A stretch of 64,000 bases of DNA from an uncultured Nitrospirales bacterium. Its GTDB lineage: Bacteria; Nitrospirota; Nitrospiria; Nitrospirales; UBA8639. The translations under genes were made by a program, and so were the position numbers. Of the stretch, positions 9,645 through 45,188 are shown in pieces. The stretch's first letter is position 1. Each line of letters opens with the position of its first letter. Below the pieces are notes generated by a model. That model saw only the letters and a program-made list of their open reading frames with translations. It had not been told where the DNA came from and did no database searches. Location: contig OX638327.1 in assembly GCA_951812745.1 (NCBI GenBank), forward strand, positions 992,001-1,056,000. The letters run 5' to 3'.

Positions 9645-12368
9645 TCACGCCCCGTGACATTTTTTATATTTTTTGCCGCTGCCGCACGGGCAGGGCTCGT
9701 TTCGACCGACTTTGGCCTGGGCCCGTTGGACCGTCCGTTGCGCGGGCGCACCGTCTCCACGGTTGAAGGTCATTTGGGGGGGCAGGTCCGCGTCGTCCTC
9801 GATGGGCGGGCGTTCTCCTTTGACGACCTGAACTTTAAACAGGCGCTCCAGAGAATCGGACTTGATGCGGTCCATCATGGCGGCAAACATGTCGAAGCCT
9901 TCTCGTTTATACTCCGCCAACGGATCTTTCTGGCCGTAGCCCCGGAGCCCGATGCCGTCCCGGAGTTGATCCATGCCGAGGAGATGATCCTTCCAATGAT
10001 GATCGATGACCTGTAACACCAGGCTCCGTTCAAGCTGTGAGCGCAGTTCGGGACCGATTTGTTCTTCGCGTTCCGCTTGCCTGTGCCTGAAAAGCTGCTG
10101 GACGTGTTCCAGCAATTCGTTCCGCAGGCCATCGCGTCCCATTTCCGACATGTCCTCGGTCGCCAGGACTTCCGTGCCGAATTGCGCGAGGGCGGCTTCG
10201 CGCAACCCGGCCAAATCCCAGGCTTCGGCGTAGGCTTCTTCCGGGCAGTAGGTATTGATCAAGGTGTCCACGACGTCCACGAGCCAATCCTCTGCGTCGT
10301 CTTGAATGGAACCGCCCCCAAGAACGCCGGCTCGATGGGCATAGATGATCTCCCGCTGTTTATTCATGACGTCGTCGTATTCGAGAATGTGTTTCCGGAT
10401 GTCGAAATTATGACCCTCGACTTTCTTCTGGGCGTTTTCAATGGATTTGCTGACCATCCGGTGTTCGATCGGCACGCCTTCTTCCATCCCAAGCTTCAAC
10501 ATCAGGTTGGAAACCCGTTCCGAAGCGAAAATACGCATCAGATCGTCTTCCAGGGATAAGAAGAAGCGAGACGACCCCGGGTCGCCCTGGCGACCGGACC
10601 GGCCTCGAAGCTGGTTGTCGATCCGGCGACTTTCATGACGCTCCGTGCCGACGATATGCAATCCGCCCAATTCCAGGACGTCCGCCTTTTCGATTTCGCA
10701 TTGCCTTTGAATCCGTTCGAAAGCCGCGTGCTTCTGCTCGTCGGTCAAATCGTCGCCCCGGTAGACTACCTGCTGTTTGTATAACGCGTCCGGGTTGCCG
10801 CCCAGCACAATATCCGTTCCTCGACCGGCCATGTTGGTGGCCAGCGTGACCGCGCCCTTGCCCCCGGCTTGGGAAATAATCTCCGCTTCCTTTTCATGAA
10901 ACTTGGCGTTCAAAACCTGGTGTTTCACGCCTTGCTGCTTGAGAATTTTGGAGAGTCGTTCCGACTTTTCAATGGAAATCGTGCCTACCAGTACGGGCTG
11001 ACCCCGCTCGTAGTATTCCATGACCTCCTGGGCTATCGCCTCGAATTTTTCTTTTTCCGTGCGATACACCACGTCCGAATGATCCTGGCGAACCATCTCA
11101 CGGTTGGTCGGAATCACGTTGACGTCCAGGTTGTAGATTTTGGCAAACTCCGCGGCTTCCGTATCCGCCGTCCCGGTCATCCCCGCCAGTTTTTCATACA
11201 TCCGAAAATAATTTTGAAACGTGATGGAGGCCAACGTCTGATTTTCGTTGGCGATTTTCACGCCCTCCTTGGCTTCGACCGCCTGGTGCAACCCGTCGCT
11301 CCACCGCCGGCCCGGCATCAGGCGTCCCGTAAACTCATCGACGATCTGCACTTCGCCTTCCTTGACGACGTAATCCACGTCGCGTTTATAAATGGCATGG
11401 GCCTGCAAGGCTTTGATGACGTGGTGCACCACGTCGAGATTTTTCGGGTCATACAGGTTGTCGCCCGCCAGCAGCCCGTCCGCGGCCAGCAATTTTTCCA
11501 CGCGGGCGTTCCCTTCTTCCGTCAGCGCCACCGTCCTTGATTTTTCTTCGATGGTATAGTCCCGTTCGGCGTTGAGCCTGGGGATCAGCCGGTTGATCCG
11601 ATTGTATAATTCCGTACTCTGTTCGGCCGGACCGGAGATGATGAGCGGCGTGCGCGCTTCATCGATCAGGATACTGTCCACCTCGTCTACGATCGCGTAC
11701 GACAAATCCCGTTGAACGCGCTGGCGCAGATCGTTGATGACCAAATTATCACGAAGGTAATCAAACCCAAACTCGTTGTTGGTGCCGTAGGTGATGTCGG
11801 CACGATAGGCTTCGGGTCTCGTACAGGGGCGCAGATAATTCAACCGTTTATCCGCCGCCTCGTATTCGGGATCAAACAGGAACGAGGATTCATGCTGGAT
11901 CACGCCGACCGTGCAACCCAACGCGTGATACACCGGGCCCATCCATTGCGCGTCACGTTTCGCCAGATAATCATTGACCGTCACCAGATGCGCGCCTTTT
12001 CCCGGCAATGCGTTCAAATACATGGGCAGGGTCGCCACCAACGTCTTTCCCTCACCGGTCTTCATTTCCGAAATTTTCCCCGCGTGCAACACCATGCCGC
12101 CCACGAGTTGGACGTCGAAGTGGCGCAGGCCGATTTTTCGCCGGGAGGCCTCACGGCACACGGCAAAGGCTTCGGGGAGCAGCGCATCCAACGGCTCTCC
12201 CGCGTCGAGGCGCTTTTTGAACACCTGAGTCTTATCCGCCAGCGCCTCATCCGAAAGCGACTGCAAGCCGGGCTCCAATTCGTTAATCCGAGCCACGATG
12301 GGTTGGAGCGCCTTCAACTCACGATCGTTTTTGCTTCCAAACAACAGATTGAGCAGTCTGACAAACAT
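9645..12368 (-). CDS. secA: Preprotein translocase ATPase SecA
   Basis: SecA drives export of unfolded preproteins through SecYEG. At 907 residues it is full length. Walker A is seen as [11 protein letters not shown], with the DEAD-box region [19 protein letters not shown], the [12 protein letters not shown] and [13 protein letters not shown] motifs, and the C-terminal zinc SEC-C tail [17 protein letters not shown], which binds SecB and phospholipid. The ATG at 12368 ([17 protein letters not shown]) has AGAGGTG upstream. It is divergent from the TonB-dependent receptor at 12732. Confidence 0.98.
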
Positions 12369-12731
12369 GATCGGTCAACACCTCTGGAGGAATGAACGTC
12401 TTTTCGTTATCGGGATGATCCTGTCACTGCCATGACCTGACAGGGGGTCTGCCTTGTCACGTCTTGCTTCCATTCTCAGGCCTTGTCTATGCAGGCTGCA
12501 AGCCTGCGTAGAAAATTTTCACCGTTTTATATAAGAGAGCTTATAGCAAACTTGATCCGGTCGCGGCTAGTGGGGATTGACCAAGGGGGTGTGTATTGCA
12601 ATTGTCGGGGGAGAGTTGTAAATTACGTAGTTTGCTACGTATCTCTCCCGCTAAGCAGTGCATGTGCATTGAAGCCATGATTTCCACAACTTCAAAAGCT
12701 TTTGATTAAAGACATACGGGAGAAACCCACC
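12369..12731 (+). promoter_or_regulatory. Leader region with stacked hairpin ahead of the first TonB receptor
   Basis: This 360-base divergent gap between secA and the receptor has no credible gene. It contains three inverted repeats: CCTGTCA/TGACAGG (12420-12444), GCAGGCT/AGCCTGC (12490-12508), and a large stem at 12609-12649. The large stem is built from GGGAGAG/CTCTCCC outside and TACGTAG-TTTG-CTACGTA inside, with an eight-base bulge. No U-run follows it, so it is not a plain terminator; an operator or structured 5' leader is possible. I see no convincing Fur box and no known riboswitch consensus. Confidence 0.4.
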
Positions 12732-15158
12732 ATGAGAAAAGAACGGACTTCTTCAGGTATGACTGTCACATTTCTCAGCATTCTGCCGTTTTTAGTCTTG
12801 GTATTTTCTTTGGATGCATCTGCGCAAAGCGAAGAAAGCACGGCGAAGAGCCCGAGCATGTCGGATATCCATCAATTGGAAGAAGTCGTGGTCACGGCGA
12901 CCAGGCGGACCGAAACGGTCATGGACGTGCCCTTCTCCGTCAACGTGCTGAAAGAATCCGACATCCAGCGGCTCAACACCTTCAACCTGGAAGATCTCTC
13001 CCGGAACATCGCCGGCCTGAACATCCAGAACCTGGGGCCCGGCCAGACCGTGGTGACCATCCGCGGGGTGTCATCCGGGCAGATCGTCCGCGACCAGCCC
13101 GGCGTCAAGGAACAGGTCGGGATCTACCTGGACGACACGCCGATCGCGATTTCGCTCTTTACCCCGGACTTGGACCTGTATGACGTCCAGCGCGTGGAAA
13201 CCCTGCGGGGCCCGCAAGGCACGCTGTTCGGCTCCGGGTCCATCGGCGGCACCGTGCGGTACGTCACCAACAAGCCCCAACTCGGCGTCAAGGACGTCAG
13301 GACGCAATTCGACCTGAACACCATCGACAGCGGCTCGGCCGGCGGGCACGTCAAGGCGGCCTTCAACGCGCCCCTGGGCAACAACGCGGCCGTGCGCGTG
13401 GTGGGCTACGGCACGCGATACGGCGGGTTCATCGACGCCCTGCGGGTCACCGGCGAAAGGGACGACAACGTCAACGACGGCGGCCGCTTCGGGGGTCGCA
13501 TGTCCGTGTTGTGGCAGCCCACCGAGAACGTGACCATCACCCCCCGGCTGGTGTATCAGAACATCGACATGGACGGGTTCAACCGCGACGAGATCTTCAA
13601 CCTGTATGCCAACCCGTATTCCACGACGCGGCCCCGCGTGCAGCTCGGCAAGCGCCAGCAATTCCTGCTGCTGGAAGAAGCCTTCGAAGACGAAACCCTG
13701 CTCCTCGACAACACCGTCAAATGGAACCCCAACGACCGCATCGAGGCGACCTATGTCGCCAGCTATACCAAGCGCAACTTGCTGGTCAGCCGGGACGCCA
13801 GCGCGCTGGCCGGCAGCGTGGCGGTCGATGTGGGATTTCCACCGGAAGGAGTGCTACTGCCATCCAACTTGCGGGATACCACCGGAATCGAGCAGATGAC
13901 CCATGAGGTGCGGGTCAGTTCCACCGACGACAGTGCATTCCAATGGCAGGCGGGCGTCTTCTATTCCAATATCAAACGCGACTACTCCCAGCGACTGCCC
14001 ACGCCCGGGTGGGACCGGACATACGTAAACGCGGGAAGTCCGGGGCTCGGGGCATTGGAGGATGCCAGAAACGGCTTCAACACCATGGATTCGCCCTATG
14101 TGTCGGACTTGACCTACGACCTCAGCCAGATCGCCGTATTCGGCGAAGCCACCTACATGCTCTACGACCGCCTTGGTTTTACCGCCGGGTTGCGCTGGTA
14201 CGACTGGGAAGAAGACAAGACCTTCAGATCGGGCGGGTCCTTCTCGAACAGCGACGCGCAAAACCAGAACGTGACGGTATCCTCCAACGGGTTCACGCCC
14301 CGGTTCATGCTCAAATATGACGTGACCGACCGCGTGGCCGTGAACGCGCAGGCGTCGCGGGGATTCCGGCTGGGCGGCGTGAACGATCCGTTGAACGCGC
14401 CGCTGTGCGGCGCGGCCGCCTATGAGACCTACCGGGGGTTCCAGCGGTTCAAGGACGAGACCCTGTGGAACTACGAAGTCGGCCTCAAATCCTCATACGA
14501 AAAGGTGACGATGAACGCGTCGCTGTTCTACGCCGACATCAGCAACCTGGGCGTGAACGTGGAGGCCGGTGAATGTTCATCGCGGGTGACCGTCAGCGTA
14601 CCCGAGGCGCACACCATGGGAGGAGAACTGGAGTTCGCCGTCCACCCCACGGATGCGTTGCTGGTCACGTTTGCCGGCAGCTACGTGGAGGCGGAATTTG
14701 ATACCACGATACCCAACGTGCCCGGCATCAAGGACGGCAACCGCATCCCGTCCGTGCCCAACTGGCAGCTCTCCGCGGTGGCCACGTACACGTTCCCGGG
14801 TGTCTTGAATTCAAAGGAGAGTTACGTCACCGCAGCTTGGCAGTACGTCGGCAGTCAGTTCACCCAACCCGGTGATCAGGAAAATACGCCATACCCGTCC
14901 AGACTCATTGCGGGTCTGACGGGAGCAGACATGGCTTCCGACAATTTTCGGGACCAAATGGAACTGGACGCGTACCATCTGCTCAACCTGAACACGGGCC
15001 TGCTGTACGACACGTGGGAAGTCATGTTCTACATCAAGAACATCACGGACGAAAACCCGCAACTCTCATTCGACCGTGAACGTGGAGGAGCCGCCCGCCT
15101 GGCCTATCGCGTGGGGCAGCCCCGCACGTTCGGCATCCTCAGCCGCTTCTACTTTTGA
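12732..15158 (+). CDS. TonB-dependent outer-membrane receptor (first of two)
   Basis: An 808-residue outer-membrane receptor for energised uptake. A signal peptide ends at SLDASAQ. A TonB box (LEEVVVTATR) is followed by the plug domain with GVSSGQIVRDQPGV and the conserved LRGPQGTLFGSGSIGGTVRY. A long beta-barrel follows, ending LSRFYF with the usual terminal Phe. The ATG at 12732 has GGGAGA upstream; an in-frame TTG 30 bases earlier lacks a ribosome site. The plug/barrel core is clearly richer in G+C than the 5' end and the neighbouring genes, suggesting acquisition or recombination. The plug style is that of receptors for siderophores or other large ligands; the ligand is unknown. Confidence 0.92.
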   Translation: MRKERTSSGMTVTFLSILPFLVLVFSLDASAQSEESTAKSPSMSDIHQLEEVVVTATRRTETVMDVPFSVNVLKESDIQRLNTFNLEDLSRNIAGLNIQNLGPGQTVVTIRGVSSGQIVRDQPGVKEQVGIYLDDTPIAISLFTPDLDLYDVQRVETLRGPQGTLFGSGSIGGTVRYVTNKPQLGVKDVRTQFDLNTIDSGSAGGHVKAAFNAPLGNNAAVRVVGYGTRYGGFIDALRVTGERDDNVNDGGRFGGRMSVLWQPTENVTITPRLVYQNIDMDGFNRDEIFNLYANPYSTTRPRVQLGKRQQFLLLEEAFEDETLLLDNTVKWNPNDRIEATYVASYTKRNLLVSRDASALAGSVAVDVGFPPEGVLLPSNLRDTTGIEQMTHEVRVSSTDDSAFQWQAGVFYSNIKRDYSQRLPTPGWDRTYVNAGSPGLGALEDARNGFNTMDSPYVSDLTYDLSQIAVFGEATYMLYDRLGFTAGLRWYDWEEDKTFRSGGSFSNSDAQNQNVTVSSNGFTPRFMLKYDVTDRVAVNAQASRGFRLGGVNDPLNAPLCGAAAYETYRGFQRFKDETLWNYEVGLKSSYEKVTMNASLFYADISNLGVNVEAGECSSRVTVSVPEAHTMGGELEFAVHPTDALLVTFAGSYVEAEFDTTIPNVPGIKDGNRIPSVPNWQLSAVATYTFPGVLNSKESYVTAAWQYVGSQFTQPGDQENTPYPSRLIAGLTGADMASDNFRDQMELDAYHLLNLNTGLLYDTWEVMFYIKNITDENPQLSFDRERGGAARLAYRVGQPRTFGILSRFYF

Positions 15159-15631: not shown

Positions 15632-16786
15632 ATGATGGTTCAGAAAACCGCCGCAACGGCTTCCATCTTCTCCAAGGTTCTCGGGTCTGTTCTTGTGCCG
15701 TTACTGGGATGTCTCGTCTGCCCCCCGGCGTTAGCGCAGGACTTACCGGGCGAATCAATCGAATTCCTGGAGACCCTCGAAATTGCCGACACTCTGGCCG
15801 ATGAAGAAGAGCGGGAAATCAGTATCCCCCAACCCGATACCACGACGTTGAGGCCATTCGACGACCTCATGGTCGCCACGATTTCCAGAAATTCTCTCGT
15901 CTCACCAGACAGACCTACACTTATGCGGGATTCCATTGCGGACCGCAAGGGACTGTGGCAAACCGTCCGATTGATGACTGCCCGGGCAGAACGCCGCATC
16001 AGCCTGACCGCCTTGGACAGCACAACGGTCGTGCCGTTCAACGGCCTCATGATCGCCACGATTCCCAAAACTGCCATCGTCCCGCAGGACGGGCCTAAAC
16101 CCGAACTCGCTCGGGATTCCATTGCGGATCGCAAAGCACTGCGGAAAACCGTCAGACTGATCAAGTCCGAACGTCCCCAGTATCCGCAAGCGGCTCGCAG
16201 GGAGGGCTGGGAAGGCACGGTCGTGTTACGAATCACCATCGGTGCCGACGGGGACGTGGGAAACGTCAGAACTCAGACAAGCTCGGGGTTTCCCGTGCTT
16301 GACGAGAGTGCCGCCAAGTCAGTCAAAGTGTGGCGATTCGATCCGGCGAGAGATGGAGAATTTCGCGTTTCCGCCGTGGTCGACCTGCCCATCAGGTTCA
16401 ACCTTGACGAGTATGGGATCCAATCGTCGCGAGACGAACCTGAACCCGAACCTGAACCCGAACCTGAACCTGAACCCGTGCGGGTGAAGAAACCTGCCAG
16501 ATTGATCAAATCCGAACGTCCCCCATATCCGCAAGCGGCTCGCAGGGAGGGCTGGGAAGGCACGGTCGTGTTACGGATCACCATTGGTACCGGCGGGGAC
16601 GTGGAACAAGTCGCCATTCAAGAAAGCTCGGGACATCCCGAGCTTGACGAAAGCGCCGCACAGTCAGTCAAAACGTGGCAATTCGACCCGGCGAAAGTTG
16701 GAGACGATCCCATTTCCTCCGCGGTCGACCTGCCCGTCACATTCGACCTCGAGGAATATAAAGAGGAGACAAAAATCGCAGAATAG
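15632..16786 (+). CDS. Exported protein with two TonB C-terminal domains
   Basis: A 384-residue protein with an N-terminal export signal ending near PALAQ (residue 36); an alternative lipobox-like LLGC lies at 24-27. Residues 70-115 and 129-177 are a duplicated segment sharing RDSIADRK and TVRL. Two TonB C-terminal domains follow (about 177-258 and 290-372), each with YPQAARREGWEGTVVLRITI and the WxFDPA signature. They are separated by a linker of Glu-Pro repeats (268-282). The two domain copies are nearly identical at DNA level (around 16160-16260 and 16500-16610), so the duplication is recent. Ordinary TonB has one domain, a membrane anchor and no cleaved signal. It lies between two TonB-dependent receptors. 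The role is unknown: adaptor, competitor or spacer-type TonB. Confidence 0.85.
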   Translation: MMVQKTAATASIFSKVLGSVLVPLLGCLVCPPALAQDLPGESIEFLETLEIADTLADEEEREISIPQPDTTTLRPFDDLMVATISRNSLVSPDRPTLMRDSIADRKGLWQTVRLMTARAERRISLTALDSTTVVPFNGLMIATIPKTAIVPQDGPKPELARDSIADRKALRKTVRLIKSERPQYPQAARREGWEGTVVLRITIGADGDVGNVRTQTSSGFPVLDESAAKSVKVWRFDPARDGEFRVSAVVDLPIRFNLDEYGIQSSRDEPEPEPEPEPEPEPVRVKKPARLIKSERPPYPQAARREGWEGTVVLRITIGTGGDVEQVAIQESSGHPELDESAAQSVKTWQFDPAKVGDDPISSAVDLPVTFDLEEYKEETKIAE

Positions 16787-16807: not shown

Positions 16808-19501
16808 ATGAGCGATTATCGAATCATTCCATCAATGATCCTGTTGTGTCTATTGGCTGTTCCGACCCAGCAGTCTCTGGCACAGGAAGCCGTGGATCAG
16901 GAACCGGAGATTGTCAAACTCGAAGAAGTGATCGTGGTCGGGTCCCGTGTTCCGACACGCTCGGCCCATGATTCTCCGGTGCCGGTGGACGTGATTGAAG
17001 GGACCTCGATGAGGAACTACGGGGTCAGGGACATGAACTCCCTCCTGAGGGCCACCATACCGTCTTACAACGTCAACCAGCAGCCCATCGGCGACGCCGC
17101 CACGCTGGTGCGTCCGGCGAACCTGCGCGGCCTGCCCCCGGATTCCACCCTGATCCTCGTCAACGGCAAGCGACGCCACCGGGGCTCCGTCCTCACGTTC
17201 CTGGGCGGCGGCATTTCAGACGGGGCGCACGCGACTGATCTGGCCTCATTCCCGGCCATTGCCCTCAAGCGCGTGGAAGTCCTGCGCGACGGCGCGGCCG
17301 CGCAGTACGGGTCCGATGCCGTGGCCGGCGTGATGAACTTCGTGTTGAAAGACGCTCCGGACAGCGGCACGGTAGAAGCCCGCTGGGGCAAGTATTATGC
17401 AGGCGACGGCGACACCAGCAGTATTGCGGCCAACCTGGGCGTGCCCCTGCCACTCCCGTTCATCCAATCCGGGTTTGCCAATTTCAGCTTCGAATATGGA
17501 GCGAGAGACTGGACCGACCGCAGCATCCAACGCGACGACGCGCAGGGACTGATTGACGCGAACAACAGGCACGTGGTGAGCAGCCAGTACACGCGGCAAC
17601 CCAATGCCATGGTCTGGGGCGCACCCGAGGTTCTCTATGACTACAAACTCTTCGGCAACTTCGGGGCGAAACTGAACAGCAAGACCGAACTCTACGGCTG
17701 GGCCAACTATGCCCAACGTAAAATAGAAGGCGGGTTCTACTACCGCAATCCCAATACGCGAGGCGGGGTATTCGACGGTCCGGTGGTCGACAATGATGGT
17801 ACATACAAAACAGACGCGATGCCTGATATTCCTTTTGTCGATTCGGATGACCCCACAGACGCCGAAGCAGAACGATATGAAAAACAGATTGAGGACGGTC
17901 TAGAGAGTGGGAGGTATGTCGATACAGTTAAGGTCGCGGACCTGACCGGGGAAGGCTGCCCAAGCGTGCCGGCGAACGCTGGGGCCGACTACGCCAGTGA
18001 CATCGCAGACCTTCCCGCTAACTGCTTCATGTTCAACGAAAAATTTCCCGGCGGATTCACCCCGTTCTTCGGAGGGACGGTGCGCGACTGGAGTACAGCG
18101 ATCGGCATCCGCGGGGACATCTCTGACTGGCACTATGACCTCAGCGCCGTGCTCGGTCAACACAGCACGGACTTCTTCATGAGAAACACGATCAATCCGC
18201 AACTCGCCGCAATGCGAACCAATATTCCGACGGAATACCGGCCGGGCAAGTACACGGAGACGGATCACGTGATCAACCTCGATCTCTCCAGGGTCGTGCA
18301 GACCGCCATGCTCCCCTCCCCCCTGAACGTCGGCCTGGGCCTGGAATATCGGGTGGAGCAGTTCGAAGTCACGGCCGGCGGGGAAAATTCCTGGTATGTT
18401 GACGAGAGTCCCGCAGATCTTGCAACGCAGGGCTTCGGCGTCGGGTCCAATGGATTTGCCGGATTCTCGCCCGATATCGCGGGGACAAACAACCGGGGCA
18501 GCTACGCCGCCTACGTCGATTTGGAGACCAACGTGTCCAAGGACCTGCTGGTCGGCGTGGCCGGACGATATGAGGACTTCGAAACCTTCGGAGACACCCT
18601 GAACGGCAAGTTCAACACCCGGTGGCAAGCCACGTCCATGATGGCGCTTCGCGGCTCGGTCAGCACGGGATTCCGCGCCCCGACCGTGGGCCAGGCGAAC
18701 ATTCAGAACACGACTACGGCGTTCGTCGATGGGCGACTCCAAAATGTAGGAACCTATCCGGTGAACCATCCGCTTGCGGCTCTGAAAGGGGCTCAGGAAC
18801 TGAAGCCGGAAAAATCCTTCAACGTGTCCGCGGGCACGGTCGTGGACGTCGGGACCCTTTCCGTGACCGTCGACTACTACCGGGTCGCGGTGCGGGACCG
18901 TATCGCACGGGGCGCCCAAATTCCTTTGACTCAATCTGATATAGATTTCGCCAAAACCTTGGGTTTCAACGATATCTTCCGGGTGGCCTACTATGCCAAC
19001 GCGTTCGATACCACTACGCAAGGGTTTGACATCGTGGCGACCTACCCGATGCGGTTCGCCGGAGGGAACACCCTCTGGACGTTCACGGGCAACTATAATC
19101 GAACCGAGGTCACCGATATCAATAATCCGGAAGCCATCGATGCCAAGCGGGTGACCCAGTTGGAAAAAACTCTGCCGTTGTTCCGAATGACGTTGACAGG
19201 CGACCACAGACAGGGGCCATGGCGGTTCCTGGGCCGGGTCTACATGTACGACGGTTTTACGGAGTTTACGACGGACGGTGGGAATAATACCCGTGTCGAC
19301 GCCGGTCCGCAGTGGCTCGTGGACCTGGAAACGTCGTACACCATGAAAAACGGGCTGACGGTTTCGGCAGGGGCGCAAAACCTGTTCGATTCGTATCCCG
19401 ACCGATCAAATCCAGGGGTTTCGGGCACGAAGTATCCGGAATATTCGCCTTATGGATTCAACGGTGGATATTATTACCTGAGGGCGTTGTATGCATTCTA
19501 A
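16808..19501 (+). CDS. TonB-dependent outer-membrane receptor (second of two)
   Basis: An 897-residue receptor with a signal peptide ending at QQSLAQ, a TonB box (KLEEVIVVGSRVP), a plug with LRGLPPDSTLILVNGKRRHR and LRDGAAAQYGSDAVAGVMNF, and a barrel ending YYLRALYAF. AAGGAG lies nine bases before the ATG, and the gene starts 21 bases after the double-TonB protein, so the two are very probably co-transcribed. An extracellular-loop region around residues 350-410 contains two Cys (GEGCPS, PANCFMF) that could form a disulfide. The plug motif group includes many receptors annotated for iron complexes, but the ligand cannot be named. Confidence 0.92.
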   Translation: MSDYRIIPSMILLCLLAVPTQQSLAQEAVDQEPEIVKLEEVIVVGSRVPTRSAHDSPVPVDVIEGTSMRNYGVRDMNSLLRATIPSYNVNQQPIGDAATLVRPANLRGLPPDSTLILVNGKRRHRGSVLTFLGGGISDGAHATDLASFPAIALKRVEVLRDGAAAQYGSDAVAGVMNFVLKDAPDSGTVEARWGKYYAGDGDTSSIAANLGVPLPLPFIQSGFANFSFEYGARDWTDRSIQRDDAQGLIDANNRHVVSSQYTRQPNAMVWGAPEVLYDYKLFGNFGAKLNSKTELYGWANYAQRKIEGGFYYRNPNTRGGVFDGPVVDNDGTYKTDAMPDIPFVDSDDPTDAEAERYEKQIEDGLESGRYVDTVKVADLTGEGCPSVPANAGADYASDIADLPANCFMFNEKFPGGFTPFFGGTVRDWSTAIGIRGDISDWHYDLSAVLGQHSTDFFMRNTINPQLAAMRTNIPTEYRPGKYTETDHVINLDLSRVVQTAMLPSPLNVGLGLEYRVEQFEVTAGGENSWYVDESPADLATQGFGVGSNGFAGFSPDIAGTNNRGSYAAYVDLETNVSKDLLVGVAGRYEDFETFGDTLNGKFNTRWQATSMMALRGSVSTGFRAPTVGQANIQNTTTAFVDGRLQNVGTYPVNHPLAALKGAQELKPEKSFNVSAGTVVDVGTLSVTVDYYRVAVRDRIARGAQIPLTQSDIDFAKTLGFNDIFRVAYYANAFDTTTQGFDIVATYPMRFAGGNTLWTFTGNYNRTEVTDINNPEAIDAKRVTQLEKTLPLFRMTLTGDHRQGPWRFLGRVYMYDGFTEFTTDGGNNTRVDAGPQWLVDLETSYTMKNGLTVSAGAQNLFDSYPDRSNPGVSGTKYPEYSPYGFNGGYYYLRALYAF

Positions 19502-19556: not shown

Positions 19557-19632
19557 GCTGTTCTTCTTCTGAATATGAACGTGGGGAATCCCGTTGTCAT
19601 TACCAACCCCTTACACACACTATAGAGGCGTT

Positions 19633-20688
19633 ATGAACAGACAACTCTTACGAATCATGTCTATTGGAGCCCTGGGCTTCACGCTATGCCTCGCCGGTCC
19701 TCTCACGGGCCTGGCGGCGGATGAAGCCCAAAACTTGTTCAACCAAGGCGCGAATCACGCGAACAAACAGGAATTCCAGCAAGCCGCCAAATCCCTGCAA
19801 CAAGCCTTGGACGTGTTTCCCCGTTTTGCAGCCGCGCATCATCTTCTGGGGGTCGTCTCGTTTACCGGCTTGCAACAACCCGATCAGGCCGTCACCCACC
19901 TGAAAAAAGCCGTTGAGCTGCATCCCAATTTCGCCAGGGCCTATTTTGACCTCGGGCTGGTCTATCAACATCAGAAAAACCTGGAGGCCGCGGCAACGGT
20001 ACTCAAGAAAGCCATCGAGATCTATCCGCGCTTTGCCGACGCGCAACTGAACCTGGCATTTGCCTATGACCAACTGGGTGATCGCGAACAGGCCATCGGC
20101 GCCTACCAGGCCGCGCTGAAGATGGATCCCAGCCAACTCACCGCCCTGTATAACCTGGCGACTCTCTATGACATGCAGGGCGACACGGACCAGGCGACGA
20201 AGCAACTGCAAAAATTGACGAGCCAGGACCCTCAGGACGCCAAGGCCTGGCTCCTGTTGGCCCAGTTGGCCGAAAAGTCCCTGCGTGAGACGCAGGCGAT
20301 CGAGGCGTACCAAAAGGCCTTGGGAATCTCACCTGACTTGCTTGAGGCCCATTACGCCCTGGGGTATCTCATGCAAGCCCAGGACCAACCGCAACAAGCG
20401 GTGAACCACTTCCAGGAAGTGGTCCGCCTGAATCCGAATCACGCTGAAGCGCAGCTCAACCTGGGCGTGCTCCTGGCGAACCTCGACAAGCTCGATGAAG
20501 CCGAGCAGGCCTATCTGGCCGCCCTGAAGTTGAACCCGAACCTGGTCGAAGGCTATTACAACCTGGGGGTGTTCTACGAGTTTCACCGCAAGGATACGGA
20601 TCGCGCCCTCGAACAATACCGTAAATACATCGAACTCGGCGGCCAGGACGACCGGGTTAAAAAGCTGCTGAAAAAAGTCGGGTCGTGA
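19633..20688 (+). CDS. Periplasmic TPR-repeat protein of the TonB operon
   Basis: A 351-residue exported protein with a signal peptide ending near GLAADEA. It consists almost entirely of about nine tetratricopeptide repeats from residue 30 on, recognisable by repeating A..NL...Y...G....A...Y..AL and P-centred turns. TPR arrays act as protein-binding scaffolds. Its stop overlaps the GTG of the following tonB gene. The TPR-TonB-ExbB-ExbD order implies that it works with the energy-transducing complex, perhaps organising TonB or receptors in the periplasm. The ATG at 19633 is preferred over an upstream in-frame start because the signal sequence begins there. Confidence 0.85.
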   Translation: MNRQLLRIMSIGALGFTLCLAGPLTGLAADEAQNLFNQGANHANKQEFQQAAKSLQQALDVFPRFAAAHHLLGVVSFTGLQQPDQAVTHLKKAVELHPNFARAYFDLGLVYQHQKNLEAAATVLKKAIEIYPRFADAQLNLAFAYDQLGDREQAIGAYQAALKMDPSQLTALYNLATLYDMQGDTDQATKQLQKLTSQDPQDAKAWLLLAQLAEKSLRETQAIEAYQKALGISPDLLEAHYALGYLMQAQDQPQQAVNHFQEVVRLNPNHAEAQLNLGVLLANLDKLDEAEQAYLAALKLNPNLVEGYYNLGVFYEFHRKDTDRALEQYRKYIELGGQDDRVKKLLKKVGS

Positions 20689-21587
20689 ACCACGTCGCCT
20701 CCATGAACGTTCTCGAGCAGGAATCGTCCTTTCTGCGATTCGGGACGTGGTCCGTTCTGCTGCACGTCCTCTTTTTTGTGCTCGTCAGTCTCGTGCATTT
20801 TTCGCTCGACGTGGAAAAGCCCCCGCCGACGGTCAAGGTCACCTTCGTTGAAGTCCCGCCACCCCCCCAACCCGAACCTGAGCCCCAGGCCCCGCCCATG
20901 CTCCAGACTCAACGGCTGCAACCGCAGCCTGTCCAACGGAAACAGATTCAGCCTGCACCGAAACCGCCCGATATTGCTCAACCGGTCGAGATGCCCAAGG
21001 TCGTCTCCACGCAACCGCCGCCCCAACAACCGCCTCCTCAGCCTTTAAAACGGCGAATTCTTACGGATAACCGTGCCACGGACACCTTGAAAGCACGGGA
21101 CCTGACCAAAGTCGCGTCGCGCCGCACCCCCCTCCCCGCGGCGACGACCAAGGTTGAGGAGCCGCCGTCGATGTTCGTCCCCGGGTTTTCGACGATCGCC
21201 GCCCTGGAAGGCGCCGCGACCCGGCACGTCGTACGCGCGTCTTTACCGGCAACGGCTCCCGGCCGTTCAAGAAGAACCCTGCAGGCCGCTCGTGGCGAAG
21301 CTCAGGCCGTGACCAGTGTCGGGGTGTTACGCTCTATTCATCCCGTGTATCCACGGATCGCCAAAAAGTCCGGGTGGGAAGGGATGGTTCTCGTTCGCGT
21401 GACGGTCGAGACGAACGGCAAGGCCAGTAAGGTCGTCGTGTCGCGGAGCAGCGGACGTAAAGTTCTGGATGACGCAGCGGTCAAGGCAGTCAGAAGATGG
21501 GCTTTCCGCCCCGCACGGGACGGGAACATTCCCATTCAAAGCGTCGTGGTCATTCCCATCAAGTTTTCTTTAAGCAAACAAGGCTAA
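20685..21587 (+). CDS. tonB: Energy transducer TonB
   Basis: A 300-residue TonB. It has a short cytoplasmic tail, one membrane helix (WSVLLHVLFFVLVSLVHF, about residues 22-39) with the conserved buried His that ExbBD needs, a long Pro/Gln-rich periplasmic linker and a C-terminal TonB domain (HPVYPRIAKKSGWEGMVLVRV and WAFRPARDG). A GTG start at 20685 overlaps the TPR stop; the ATG at 20703 is an alternative and loses nothing essential. It is followed after 29 bases by exbB. It is the likely partner of the two receptors upstream. Confidence 0.9.
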   Translation: MNHVASMNVLEQESSFLRFGTWSVLLHVLFFVLVSLVHFSLDVEKPPPTVKVTFVEVPPPPQPEPEPQAPPMLQTQRLQPQPVQRKQIQPAPKPPDIAQPVEMPKVVSTQPPPQQPPPQPLKRRILTDNRATDTLKARDLTKVASRRTPLPAATTKVEEPPSMFVPGFSTIAALEGAATRHVVRASLPATAPGRSRRTLQAARGEAQAVTSVGVLRSIHPVYPRIAKKSGWEGMVLVRVTVETNGKASKVVVSRSSGRKVLDDAAVKAVRRWAFRPARDGNIPIQSVVVIPIKFSLSKQG

Positions 21588-21616: not shown

Positions 21617-22237
21617 ATGATTGACATGTCATTTGCTTTCATCAAAGTCCTGATGGCCGGCGGATTGCTGATGCTTCCCATCATTCTGTGCTCGCTGGTT
21701 GCCTTGGCCATTATTCTTGAACGGGGATGGTTTTTTTACCAGGTACCCTCCACGACGAAGGCCGATGAGATGATTGAGTTGGTCGCCCAGGGCAAATTCG
21801 ACGACGCGCTCTCTCTCAGCGAGGAGACTCAGCATCCCGTGCTTCGGGTGCTGGCATCGGGCATTCGCTCGCGCTCCTCCGCTCCGGAAAAGGCCATGGA
21901 AGCAACGGGCATGGTCGAGGTGAGCCGCATGAAACGGGGTTTTCCGTCGTTGGACACCATCATTACACTCTCCCCGTTGTTGGGGTTGTTGGGCACCATC
22001 ATCGGGATGATCGATTCCTTCGGCATCATGGCCATTGAAGGTATGGGCTCCCCGCATGCCGTTACCGGCGGAGTCGCCGAGGCGCTCATCTGTACGGCCG
22101 GCGGCATTACCGTTGCCGTGCTGGCCCTCATCCCCTACAACTACTTCGTGGCTCGCGCGGAAAACATCACCGAACAGATCGAGCACTATGCCACGCGCAA
22201 TGAATCAGCCCTGCAAGCAACGGCGGTGATGCCATGA
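21617..22237 (+). CDS. exbB: Biopolymer transport protein ExbB (MotA/TolQ/ExbB family)
   Basis: This is the proton-channel subunit that powers TonB. The 206-residue protein has three membrane helices (about residues 10-30, 110-135 and 155-175) and the conserved LSPLLGLLGTIIGMIDSF and GGVAEALICTAGGITVAVLALIPYNYF segments. AAGGATC precedes the ATG. The stop overlaps exbD by four bases, giving tight coupling of the two subunits. Confidence 0.95.
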   Translation: MIDMSFAFIKVLMAGGLLMLPIILCSLVALAIILERGWFFYQVPSTTKADEMIELVAQGKFDDALSLSEETQHPVLRVLASGIRSRSSAPEKAMEATGMVEVSRMKRGFPSLDTIITLSPLLGLLGTIIGMIDSFGIMAIEGMGSPHAVTGGVAEALICTAGGITVAVLALIPYNYFVARAENITEQIEHYATRNESALQATAVMP

Positions 22238-22647
22238 AGTTGTCTACGGCCGACAAGAAAAAAGCCAGGATTGAGATTATTCCCATGATCGACACCATGT
22301 TTTTTCTGTTGGTGTTTTTCATGATCTCCACTCTGTCCATGACTCTGCAGAAAGGCATGGAAGTGAACTTGCCGAAGGCCAGTTCGGCGTCGGATGATCT
22401 TCCCGAACAAGTCACCCTCACGATCGGCAGTAAAGGCGAACTCTTCTTTAATAAGGACACCTGCACGATCTCGGAACTCGAGCTGCGCCTACACGATCTC
22501 CTGTATTATGGGGAAAAACCCGCGGTGGTGATCAACGCCGATGAAGCCGTTTCGCATGGTCAAGTGATCGAGGTCATGGATGCCGTGAGAGAAGCCGGCA
22601 TTTTCGATTTTGCGATTGCAACCAAACCGGACAAGCCCTCTACGTAG
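22234..22647 (+). CDS. exbD: Biopolymer transport protein ExbD
   Basis: This is the partner of ExbB in the proton-driven TonB motor. The 137-residue protein has one N-terminal membrane helix with the essential aspartate in IEIIPMIDTMFFLLVFF (about residues 11-27) and a periplasmic ExbD domain. It overlaps exbB (ATGA). The next 265 bases to the Slp-like gene hold no gene and no clear terminator. Confidence 0.95.
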   Translation: MKLSTADKKKARIEIIPMIDTMFFLLVFFMISTLSMTLQKGMEVNLPKASSASDDLPEQVTLTIGSKGELFFNKDTCTISELELRLHDLLYYGEKPAVVINADEAVSHGQVIEVMDAVREAGIFDFAIATKPDKPST

Positions 22648-42093: not shown

Positions 42094-43476
42094 TTATTCC
42101 GAGAATGGAGACCAGGCAGGAGAACTATGGTGTATCCCGCCTTTCGTCAACTGTTCCAACCCTGTGCCATCATAATGAATCATGTAAATGTGGTTTGGCC
42201 CCTGCCCCCCGTCGCCCCGCGAGGAACTGAAGACCAAGTGACGGCCATTCGGTGCCCACGAAGGAGAATCATCGATTTCATTGGGGGGCCCGTTCGTCAT
42301 TTGAACCCGTCGCTTCCCATCCGGAGAAATCCGGCATAGCTTCAGCCCATAGCCGGGTACGCGACAGACGTAGGCGATCCAATCTCCCCGCGGAGACCAA
42401 GCTGGTGCGGCATTGTAACGCCCATCAAAGGTCAACCGGCGGACGTGTGAGCCGTCGGCCCTCATGATGTAAATTTGCGGTCGACCGGTCCGATCGGACG
42501 TAAAAGCCAATTCTCGTCCATCCGGCGACCACGTGGGCGACAATTCCGCACTCACATGATTGGTTAATGGCTTTTTCTTTTCCGTGCGCATGTTCATCAT
42601 AAAGATGTCGGAATTCCCCTGCTTGGCGGAATCCTTGGCGGAAGCATACGCCAACCATCGACCATTCGGGGAAACCGTCGGAGTCATATTCAACGTTTCA
42701 GGAGGCACCAGGATGCGTCTCTTCCCTTTGCCCAACTCGAGCCACACGATTTCCTGATTGTTGCGGCGATAGGTCGTGTATACGACGGAGCGGCGGTCGG
42801 GCGACCAGTTCGGCATGAGGCTTAATTTAGGATTCGACGTCACGCGCTTGGGACCGTACCCGTCATAATCCATCACAAACAAATCCCGTCGGCCGGCCTG
42901 GTCTTCGGAAACGTAGATGATCTTGGTCTGGGCAATGCCGGGATCCCCCGTGTAATGCGAGACCAATTCATCAGCCCACCGATGCACCATCAACCGTAGA
43001 AGCCTCATGGTCATCGGACCACGAGTATGGGCATACCGTTTCCCAACCGCGATCACGTCCGTCTCCCCTCCCTCGTAGACACAGGCTTCCATCGACAATT
43101 TCCCATCTTTTCGACCGATTCTGCCCCAGGTGACCAATGGAGCCGTGCTTTCCTTAGCTTGCGCTATGGCTGCCTTTCTCCGGCACCCTGCTTGGGAAAG
43201 CGGGAGAGTAGCCGTTGCTCGTTCAAGGACCTCGAACACGTGAGTTCGCCGCAAATCCGCCTTGAGAATCGCGTTGACTTGCCCGCCGATTCCGGCATCA
43301 TCCTGTTGCCGGAGTTCACTATCGGCGAACCCCATGATCCAGATGGGAATTTTTTGAAATTCCGACTTTTTCGCTTCTAAAAACACGTCGGCTTCATTCG
43401 CCTCCGCGTCAGCAAAGAACGGAGGACCCAGAGCACAAGAGCACAAGAGTAAGACGAGGCACGTGACGTTTTTCAT
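42094..43476 (-). CDS. tolB: Tol-Pal system beta-propeller protein TolB
   Basis: This is the periplasmic component of the Tol system that keeps the outer membrane attached during division. The 460-residue protein has a signal peptide, an N-terminal TolB_N alpha/beta domain (about 30-165) and a C-terminal six-bladed propeller made of repeats with P-x-W-S-P-D-G-R (for example PTWSPDGRELAFTSDRTG). It overlaps tolA by four bases. It normally binds Pal, but no pal is found next to it. Confidence 0.95.
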   Translation of the reverse strand: MKNVTCLVLLLCSCALGPPFFADAEANEADVFLEAKKSEFQKIPIWIMGFADSELRQQDDAGIGGQVNAILKADLRRTHVFEVLERATATLPLSQAGCRRKAAIAQAKESTAPLVTWGRIGRKDGKLSMEACVYEGGETDVIAVGKRYAHTRGPMTMRLLRLMVHRWADELVSHYTGDPGIAQTKIIYVSEDQAGRRDLFVMDYDGYGPKRVTSNPKLSLMPNWSPDRRSVVYTTYRRNNQEIVWLELGKGKRRILVPPETLNMTPTVSPNGRWLAYASAKDSAKQGNSDIFMMNMRTEKKKPLTNHVSAELSPTWSPDGRELAFTSDRTGRPQIYIMRADGSHVRRLTFDGRYNAAPAWSPRGDWIAYVCRVPGYGLKLCRISPDGKRRVQMTNGPPNEIDDSPSWAPNGRHLVFSSSRGDGGQGPNHIYMIHYDGTGLEQLTKGGIHHSSPAWSPFSE

Positions 43477-45188
43477 TGTCGATTCGGCAGGCCCGTAAAC
43501 GTGTATTGAACGTCGTAAGAAGGCTTCGGCATGTTGTCGGGAAAGGGTGGCAAGGAAGCTTTATCCACCGCATCTTTTGCAAACGAGTCAAAACGTTCAT
43601 TCCCCGAGGATCGGACGACGACAATGCCTTTCTTTTTCTCGAGCTGACCGTCCGGCAAGACGCGAAAACCCAGAACCACTGTGCGCTGAAATGTAACCCT
43701 ATACACCTTCTTTTCCCATATCGCCTTAATGATAGCCGTGACTCGCATCCAATAGGCATTTTCTTTAGGAGAAGGTCCTGCCACCCGCAGTGCCAACGTT
43801 TCCTGCGCACCACTCTCCGTTTGTTGGAAACCCAGCTGAACGTCAACAGCCGGCACCTCAAGTTTGGCGATCTGACTTCCCAGGGTATCCGGTGCGAACG
43901 TGGTCATGGGAACCGTGGATTGCGAAGGGACCGGGTCTCGCTCCATTGTCACCTCGGCCAGTTGCGGAGCCTGGGGCAGATCGAATTTCTTTTGCGGCAG
44001 GTTCCGGGCCTCGACCGATTTGGGATGTTTCGGCGACGTTTCAGGAACGAGTGGAACCGCTTCAGATATGGGGTGCGGCGTCTTGTTTTTGGTGATTCTC
44101 TCGGGGATCCGTATCTTGTCAAGCTCCTGCGTCAACGACTCCACAATGTCGCTTTCCTGTGCCGTTTGCAGCGGCGGCTCCTTCTTCGGCGCCTCGAGCG
44201 GTACGACGGCCACCAGCCGAGGTGCCCGGGAAGGCACAGTAATGCCTGATGATTCAGGTGTCTTGGTCGGGTCCTGTTTCGGCTTGCTTTCTGATGTGAC
44301 GGTCGGGCTCACGCGTCTGGAAGCCTGCTCCGGCTTCTTGGGGACGACGATGGTGCCAACGCGCTGTTTCAGTTTTTCGGCTAGCAGGCCAACTTTCGGG
44401 GCAGGAGTCGACGTTTCCGACTTCTCGATCACCAATTCCGGTGGTTGCGGGGGCGCCTGGATTGGCTGAACGGCCATCTCCGCGGCAGGCGACTGTTTGA
44501 TAGGAGAGGGCGGAGCCTGGCGGGGTGTAACCTTTTGGGGCGATGCCAAGGCTTGCGGCTTTGGTACGACCACGGAATCCAGCGCGCCCACGAGTGAATC
44601 CGTCACCCGTTCCGGTTTGGGCGCGTTTCCGTCGTCCGCTTTAGGCAGAGGCGGAAGCGTATCCACGTTCTGTGTCCCTGCCGGCTTGGAGTCAGCAAAC
44701 ACCGGCAGCGGCGGAAGAGGCGGCGGCAAAAGCGGCGCAGCCTTTGGGGGCAGTGCCAGGACTTGCGGCTTTGGCAGGACCACGGAATCCAGCGCGCCCA
44801 CGAGTGAATCCGTCACCCGTTCCGGCACCCTCGGCTTTTCCTGGGGCACGGGACTGGGAGGATTGCCCGCCTTTTTTTGCGGGGCAAGCTTCGGGATTTC
44901 TCCAGGCTCCACCTGGGGAGGGGAAACCGTATCGGCGTTCCGTGTCGACTTGTTTGCCGATGAAGCAGTCGGCGACGCCGCGATCTCCGGAAGCGTGACG
45001 AGCGTGACCTCGTACGACCCCGAGGACGGTTCGAGCGATGACGCGAACCGAAAACTCAGAAACGCGATGAACACAACCACGTGAATGGCCAGCGAACCGG
45101 CAAGGGGCCCCGTAAGCTGTGTTTCCACCGAATCGGCAGAGTCCGACGCATGAAACGACACAAGATTGAAAGGCGCTGCATACGACAT
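43473..45188 (-). CDS. tolA: TolA/TonB-like periplasm-spanning protein
   Basis: A 571-residue protein with one N-terminal membrane helix (LAGSLAIHVVVFIAFLSF, with a buried His as in TonB). A Pro-rich linker of more than 400 residues follows, and then a C-terminal TonB/TolA domain of about 85 residues (VTAIIKAIWEKKVYRVTF and LPDGQLEKKKGIVVVRSSGN). By position between tolR and tolB it should serve as TolA. The linker contains a duplicated block ERVTDSLVGALDSVV-PKPQ-LA (DNA near 44548-44614 and 44758-44824). The Pro-rich rather than Ala/Lys-helical linker is more TonB-like. Confidence 0.88.
   Translation of the reverse strand: MSYAAPFNLVSFHASDSADSVETQLTGPLAGSLAIHVVVFIAFLSFRFASSLEPSSGSYEVTLVTLPEIAASPTASSANKSTRNADTVSPPQVEPGEIPKLAPQKKAGNPPSPVPQEKPRVPERVTDSLVGALDSVVLPKPQVLALPPKAAPLLPPPLPPLPVFADSKPAGTQNVDTLPPLPKADDGNAPKPERVTDSLVGALDSVVVPKPQALASPQKVTPRQAPPSPIKQSPAAEMAVQPIQAPPQPPELVIEKSETSTPAPKVGLLAEKLKQRVGTIVVPKKPEQASRRVSPTVTSESKPKQDPTKTPESSGITVPSRAPRLVAVVPLEAPKKEPPLQTAQESDIVESLTQELDKIRIPERITKNKTPHPISEAVPLVPETSPKHPKSVEARNLPQKKFDLPQAPQLAEVTMERDPVPSQSTVPMTTFAPDTLGSQIAKLEVPAVDVQLGFQQTESGAQETLALRVAGPSPKENAYWMRVTAIIKAIWEKKVYRVTFQRTVVLGFRVLPDGQLEKKKGIVVVRSSGNERFDSFAKDAVDKASLPPFPDNMPKPSYDVQYTFTGLPNRQ

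Follow-up and report, generated by a model that had tools for sequence, protein, structure and literature searches.

The window, the stretch of 64,000 nucleotides analysed here, is part of a complete genome of 2.35 Mb. Among named relatives, Nitrospira sp. bin75 is the closest. From the relatives and from PMC12342949, we infer that the family of the window genome corresponds to lineage IV within the order Nitrospirales. The following genes and features lie at the locus:

9645–12368, minus strand: SecA, the divergent, conserved neighbour of the operon.
12702–15158, plus strand: TonB-dependent receptor upstream of DTC, found here in the window genome only.
15632–16786, plus strand: DTC, an exported tandem TonB_C protein of 384 aa (open reading frame; Pfam TonB_C twice; conserved in the genus).
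16808–19501, plus strand: TonB-dependent receptor with Plug and barrel and the box LEEVIVVGSR, 21 nt downstream of DTC.
19594–20688, plus strand: TPR-repeat protein, an ancestral member of the operon.
20685–21587, plus strand: the true TonB, with an anchor carrying S-x3-H (SVLLH), a Pro-rich linker and one TonB_C domain.
20832–20852, plus strand: D-box of the true TonB, VKVTFVE (pattern from PMC10907165).
21617–22237, plus strand: ExbB (MotA_ExbB).
22234–22647, plus strand: ExbD (ExbD domain).

The genome has four TonB_C matches: two in DTC, one in the true TonB, and one weak match in a TolA-like protein. At 42094–45188 on the minus strand of the window, a TolA-like protein with a TonB_2/TonB_C domain adjoins a TolB-like beta-propeller protein.

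DTC itself has these parts:

15632–15736, plus strand: signal peptide, residues 1–35, ending in PPALA before QD at a probable signal peptidase I site.
15758–15793, plus strand: TonB-box-like motif, residues 43–54, IEFLETLEIADT (PSSM score, dN/dS).
15836–15975, plus strand: linker repeat unit 1, last residues RDSIADRKGLWQTVRL (direct repeats D2, D4).
16016–16161, plus strand: linker repeat unit 2, last residues RDSIADRKALRKTVRL (direct repeats D2, D4).
16144–16414, plus strand: N-copy, the first TonB C-terminal domain (repeat, Pfam, AlphaFold2, structural match).
16435–16478, plus strand: Glu-Pro repeat separating the two domains, kept in 9 of 9 double-domain species.
16489–16759, plus strand: C-copy, the second TonB C-terminal domain (repeat, Pfam, AlphaFold2, structural match).

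The TonB_C assignment of DTC is secure. The whole protein matches Pfam TonB_C (PF03544) in two stretches at 157.7 bits (E 1e-46; cut-off 24.6), and the single copies score 83.4 and 81.2 bits. Open reading frame, repeats and Pfam confirm the architecture given in the preliminary description – signal peptide, duplicated linker, TonB_C, Glu-Pro linker and second TonB_C in one frame – but its statement that the two domains are nearly identical was too strong, as the copies (271 nt each, 345 nt apart) have 82% DNA identity. The linker unit is duplicated too, at 72% over 85 nt and 86% over 50 nt. In the AlphaFold2 model both domains are folded (pLDDT about 75–94) and residues 29–171 are disordered. 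The best structural match found with Foldseek is TonB bound to FoxA (6i97_D, TM 0.85 normalised by the target), and the solved structures nearest to the domain are TonB domains. Pfam gives only TonB_C-type domains in DTC, with no Plug or barrel. Across the DTC family, conservation in the mature protein is confined to the box, short linker motifs and the TonB_C domain.

The signal of DTC looks cleavable by signal peptidase I. The A-x-A-Q-D pattern at its end is kept in genus mates, and by a simple pattern 34 of the 35 family members have a small-x-small site between the hydrophobic core and the box, an approximate count that includes one truncated and one masked sequence. An uncleaved anchor like that of ordinary TonB is thus unlikely. 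The possibility that DTC is a lipoprotein was considered and rejected: the LLGC of the window protein is LLAY, LLSC or LLGG in genus mates, so that the cysteine a lipidated form would use is not conserved. The S-x3-H motor-contact motif present in the true TonB is absent from DTC. A D-box, the alternating motif between prolines for ExbD (PMC10907165), is likewise not found on reading the DTC sequence. Since the A-x-A site is kept, the cysteine is not, and both S-x3-H and D-box are missing, DTC is probably a soluble periplasmic protein, neither an anchored TonB nor a lipoprotein. The suggestion that it is exported with no permanent anchor and no ExbB/ExbD-contact features is therefore supported.

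The two domains had been attributed to a recent duplication, with an assembly duplication as the alternative. Neither explanation holds. Both copies are present in nine separately assembled genomes of distinct species, and in a tree of the copies the C-copies form one clade (support 100/99) while the N-copies cluster with the one domain of genome G007. Because the C-copies form one clade and the N-copies group apart, the duplication predates the split of the double-domain species. An earlier branch, G010, has a duplicated linker and one domain. G007 is nested inside the double-domain group and has one domain, with a start like the N-copy and an end like the C-copy (L047:8336-9184), a combination that points to contraction through recombination. 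In the window, the starts of both copies (16144–16240 and 16489–16585) look homogenised. There, only the first ~90 nt are affected: they are 93 and 91% identical, closer than in any of eight relatives, and share an identical run of 50 nt, compared to runs of at most 22 nt in those relatives; this pattern suggests a recent gene conversion tract in the window lineage only.

The gene order at this locus is conserved well beyond the genus. All 14 family loci outside the window genus have the order DTC–TPR–TonB, with a single-domain DTC. Nearly always, these loci also hold ExbB and ExbD, with SecA divergent upstream. In a second family of the Nitrospirales, three of four loci show the same DTC–TPR–TonB order. 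Judging from these comparisons, the ancestor of the window gene is a single-domain exported protein of an operon DTC–TPR–TonB–ExbB–ExbD, and the window DTC is a genus-specific, enlarged descendant of it. In a sample of 296 Nitrospirota genomes, those among the best matches listed that include the box region come from two families (f1, f2).

The preliminary description had set DTC between two receptors, and in the window genome that is correct. The downstream receptor directly follows DTC in those genus mates that have the DTC gene. The upstream receptor (12702–15158), however, is absent at the locus in the other genus mates with a readable upstream side; it is apparently a late insertion between SecA and the Ton operon in the window genome only. 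The ancestral single-domain form has no adjoining receptor. As relatives lack the upstream receptor, the two-receptor sandwich is incidental, and tandem domains with two flanking receptors are not the essence of the system: the conserved fact is the linkage to the Ton operon. The genetic tie to the Ton motor, with the true TonB 4 kb downstream, is borne out by the operon order in the relatives.

Several loci vary in other ways. In G020, G021 and G028 (L060, L061, L066) there is a gap of about 4.4 kb between ExbB and ExbD, which in G021 and G028 holds a TonB-dependent receptor; the box of the G028 receptor, IETLPTLTVEGT, is close to the DTC-family box. In G006 the TonB (L046:3491-4418) is in two frames, due to a frameshift or an assembly error. 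In G024 an exported frame of 522 codons (L072:5887-7452, minus strand) encodes a signal peptide, two tandem TonB_C domains and an unassigned C-terminal part. This protein looks unrelated to DTC, and no box-like segment precedes its domains.

Mature DTC of the single-domain relatives starts with a few acidic residues followed by VETLDVIEVPGT or close variants. Receptors of the same genomes have VETLDPVVVTAT, VTTLDTMIVTGS or IETLPTLTVEGT at the equivalent place. The family form of the DTC motif is VETLDxIEVPGT, from which the window form IEFLETLEIADT has drifted. A position-specific scoring matrix (PSSM) was built from 24 receptor TonB boxes found independently of the DTC family, with 12 columns centred on the box. 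On the DTC family alignment the box block peaks at 13.6 and the next block is at −4.6, and 1 of 5000 column-permuted control matrices reaches the observed family peak. The boxes of the second family are near-perfect – VQQLDEVEVTAS scores 25.0, which is in the receptor range. The window motif scores 7.6 and, as in each N-terminal region of the window genus, is the protein's own best segment. Taken alone, the motif of the window DTC is not significant; the family as a whole scores as having a TonB-box-like motif. An earlier PSSM, which included receptor-specific columns after the box, gave weak results for single proteins (716/1000 shuffles for the window DTC). The box has a dN/dS of 0.23, similar to the domains (0.22), with 0.47 for the linker or signal peptide, and few segments of the N-terminal half are better conserved. 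These sequence comparisons show a family-wide, TonB-box-like motif under purifying selection. That the motif is a D-box was considered and rejected: the alternating pattern does not fit, and receptor boxes match instead.

It is distinctly unlikely that the likeness to a TonB box is due to chance or is vestigial, with DTC being a further exported TonB_C protein that has some other envelope partner. Such an origin would fit the weak motif of the window genus and the exported G024 protein, in which two TonB_C domains occur with no box-like N-terminus. The permutation control, the near-perfect boxes of the second family, and a dN/dS for the box similar to that of the domains all argue against it.

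Two genus mates, G002 and G008, have neither a free DTC gene nor an adjacent receptor at the locus. Both are early branches of the genus in the SecA and ExbB–ExbD trees (in the SecA tree, G002 only). Their TonB is in its usual place after the TPR gene and has a TonB-like start; it is complete in G002, while in G008 the contig ends within the frame. It contains the DTC-type linker motif FRDTTADRK, of which RDTTADRK is absent from 28 other TonB-type frames. Its domain scores 25.6 bits (G002) and 23.2 bits (G008) higher with a DTC profile than with a TonB profile. By the same contrast, the other TonBs of the family lean toward the TonB profile by at least 23 bits and the DTCs toward the DTC profile by at least 30 bits. 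A domain tree also puts the G002 and G008 TonB with the exported proteins, but in an AU test on 80 columns the alternative grouping with ordinary TonB is not rejected (p 0.36), so the case for a fusion rests on the profile scores and the linker motif.

On this evidence the TonB of G002 and G008 is apparently a natural fusion of TonB and DTC. If real, the fusion keeps the anchor and linker of TonB and the linker and domain of DTC, and drops the TonB domain and the DTC box. Aside from one weak match that looks like TolA, the hybrid is the sole TonB_C match in either genome; as the only TonB-type protein there, it presumably serves the receptors of both. It shows at least that a DTC-type domain can sit on the Ton motor. 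The preliminary description had missed this fusion in two relatives, as well as the TonB-box-like motif and the ancestral operon.

Of the readings offered in that description, the linking of receptors to the true TonB is the leading idea. We consider it quite possible, if somewhat short of an even chance, that DTC is a periplasmic accessory of the TonB–ExbB–ExbD motor, acting in series between TonB and the receptors. Once DTC is exported and its signal peptide cleaved off, its N-terminus would be free, and its TonB box would be gripped by the C-terminal domain of TonB. At the far end of the disordered linker, the TonB_C domain or domains would pair with receptor boxes at the outer membrane, so that a second non-covalent joint would lie in the path by which a pull on TonB reaches the receptor. 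In the window genus, duplication of the linker and then of the domain may have extended the reach and provided two heads for gripping receptors, next to a receptor gene newly gained. We infer all of the contacts made by DTC, their binding, the transfer of force and its direction, and the role of the second head.

Evidence for a place in series comes from the DTC–TPR–TonB loci, the receptor-like box at the mature N-terminus, the parts of DTC that are conserved, and the hybrid of G002 and G008. The parts that the fusion drops would be exactly the two that form the non-covalent joint between TonB and box in such a relay. Against it, the window box has drifted and single sequences are not significant alone. 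Ton systems also run without DTC: genomes with no DTC gene, among them most of f3, a related family, have a Ton system. The strand pairings in a chain with two joints may also be too weak for force transmission. More tentatively, a general form of the proposal may be considered, which we regard as possible but doubtful: a diffusible protein with box and TonB_C would lengthen and branch the path of force from motor to receptor, and in some relatives would have merged covalently with TonB.

A competitor or buffer is an unlikely alternative that the anatomy of DTC would fit equally. Its domains could cap receptor boxes, or its box could cap TonB, so that the motor is damped or rationed. With no anchor and no D-box, DTC cannot be pulled directly by ExbB and ExbD, which counts for a competitor, and two heads would raise its avidity for receptors. 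A pure competitor, however, needs no pair of box and TonB_C, and in the hybrids a domain of the DTC type is joined to an anchor coupled to the motor and presumably transmits force there.

The presence of both contact halves on one chain also raises self-association, in which the box would pair with a TonB_C domain, either on its own molecule or on the next. The result would be a periplasmic polymer or an autoinhibited monomer, and the linkage to TonB would be secondary. With two domains to one box, the form of the window genus would permit branching, but in the full-length AlphaFold2 model the box is disordered and is not placed on a domain, and we regard self-association as very unlikely. A model of a fragment with box, linker and first domain was uninformative (mean pLDDT 32), with shallow alignments of the window sequences and two relatives.

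DTC shares features with several known systems but differs from each. It resembles TonB (PF03544/TIGR01352) in the fold and sequence of the C-terminal domain and in being in an operon with ExbB and ExbD, but has no S-x3-H anchor and no D-box, and has instead a cleavable-type signal, its own TonB-box-like motif and, in the window genus, two domains. Like TonB-dependent receptors, it has a TonB-box motif no more than about ten residues after a signal peptide, but it has one or more TonB_C domains instead of plug and barrel. MxcH (NF038079), a receptor with an N-terminal TonB_C domain, is also a case of TonB_C on a protein other than an anchored TonB. The TonB_C part of DTC scores 94.5 bits with the MxcH profile (cut-off 925); MxcH continues as a receptor, whereas in DTC the box precedes TonB_C and there is no barrel. 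The TonB paralogues HasB and FusB have TonB-fold domains with specialised partners (structural matches 2m2k and 7zc8), but both are described as inner-membrane, motor-coupled proteins. In group B colicins, too, a TonB box occurs outside the receptors (PMC11658791), but colicins are imported toxins with no TonB_C domains. The TonB_C domain, exported TonB_C proteins of the MxcH receptor type, and TonB boxes on colicins are thus already known. Our searches of the open-access literature turned up no account of a protein that combines a TonB box with one or more TonB_C domains but has no anchor, plug or barrel.

The Ton system is usually drawn as one TonB to one receptor. DTC, from a bacterium of nitrite-oxidiser type, has both halves of the handshake between TonB box and TonB_C in one exported protein, and this combination is conserved in its relatives. 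If the proposed place in series is true, the force path of the Ton system can hold an extra, exchangeable link, which would bear on the way in which several receptors share one TonB.
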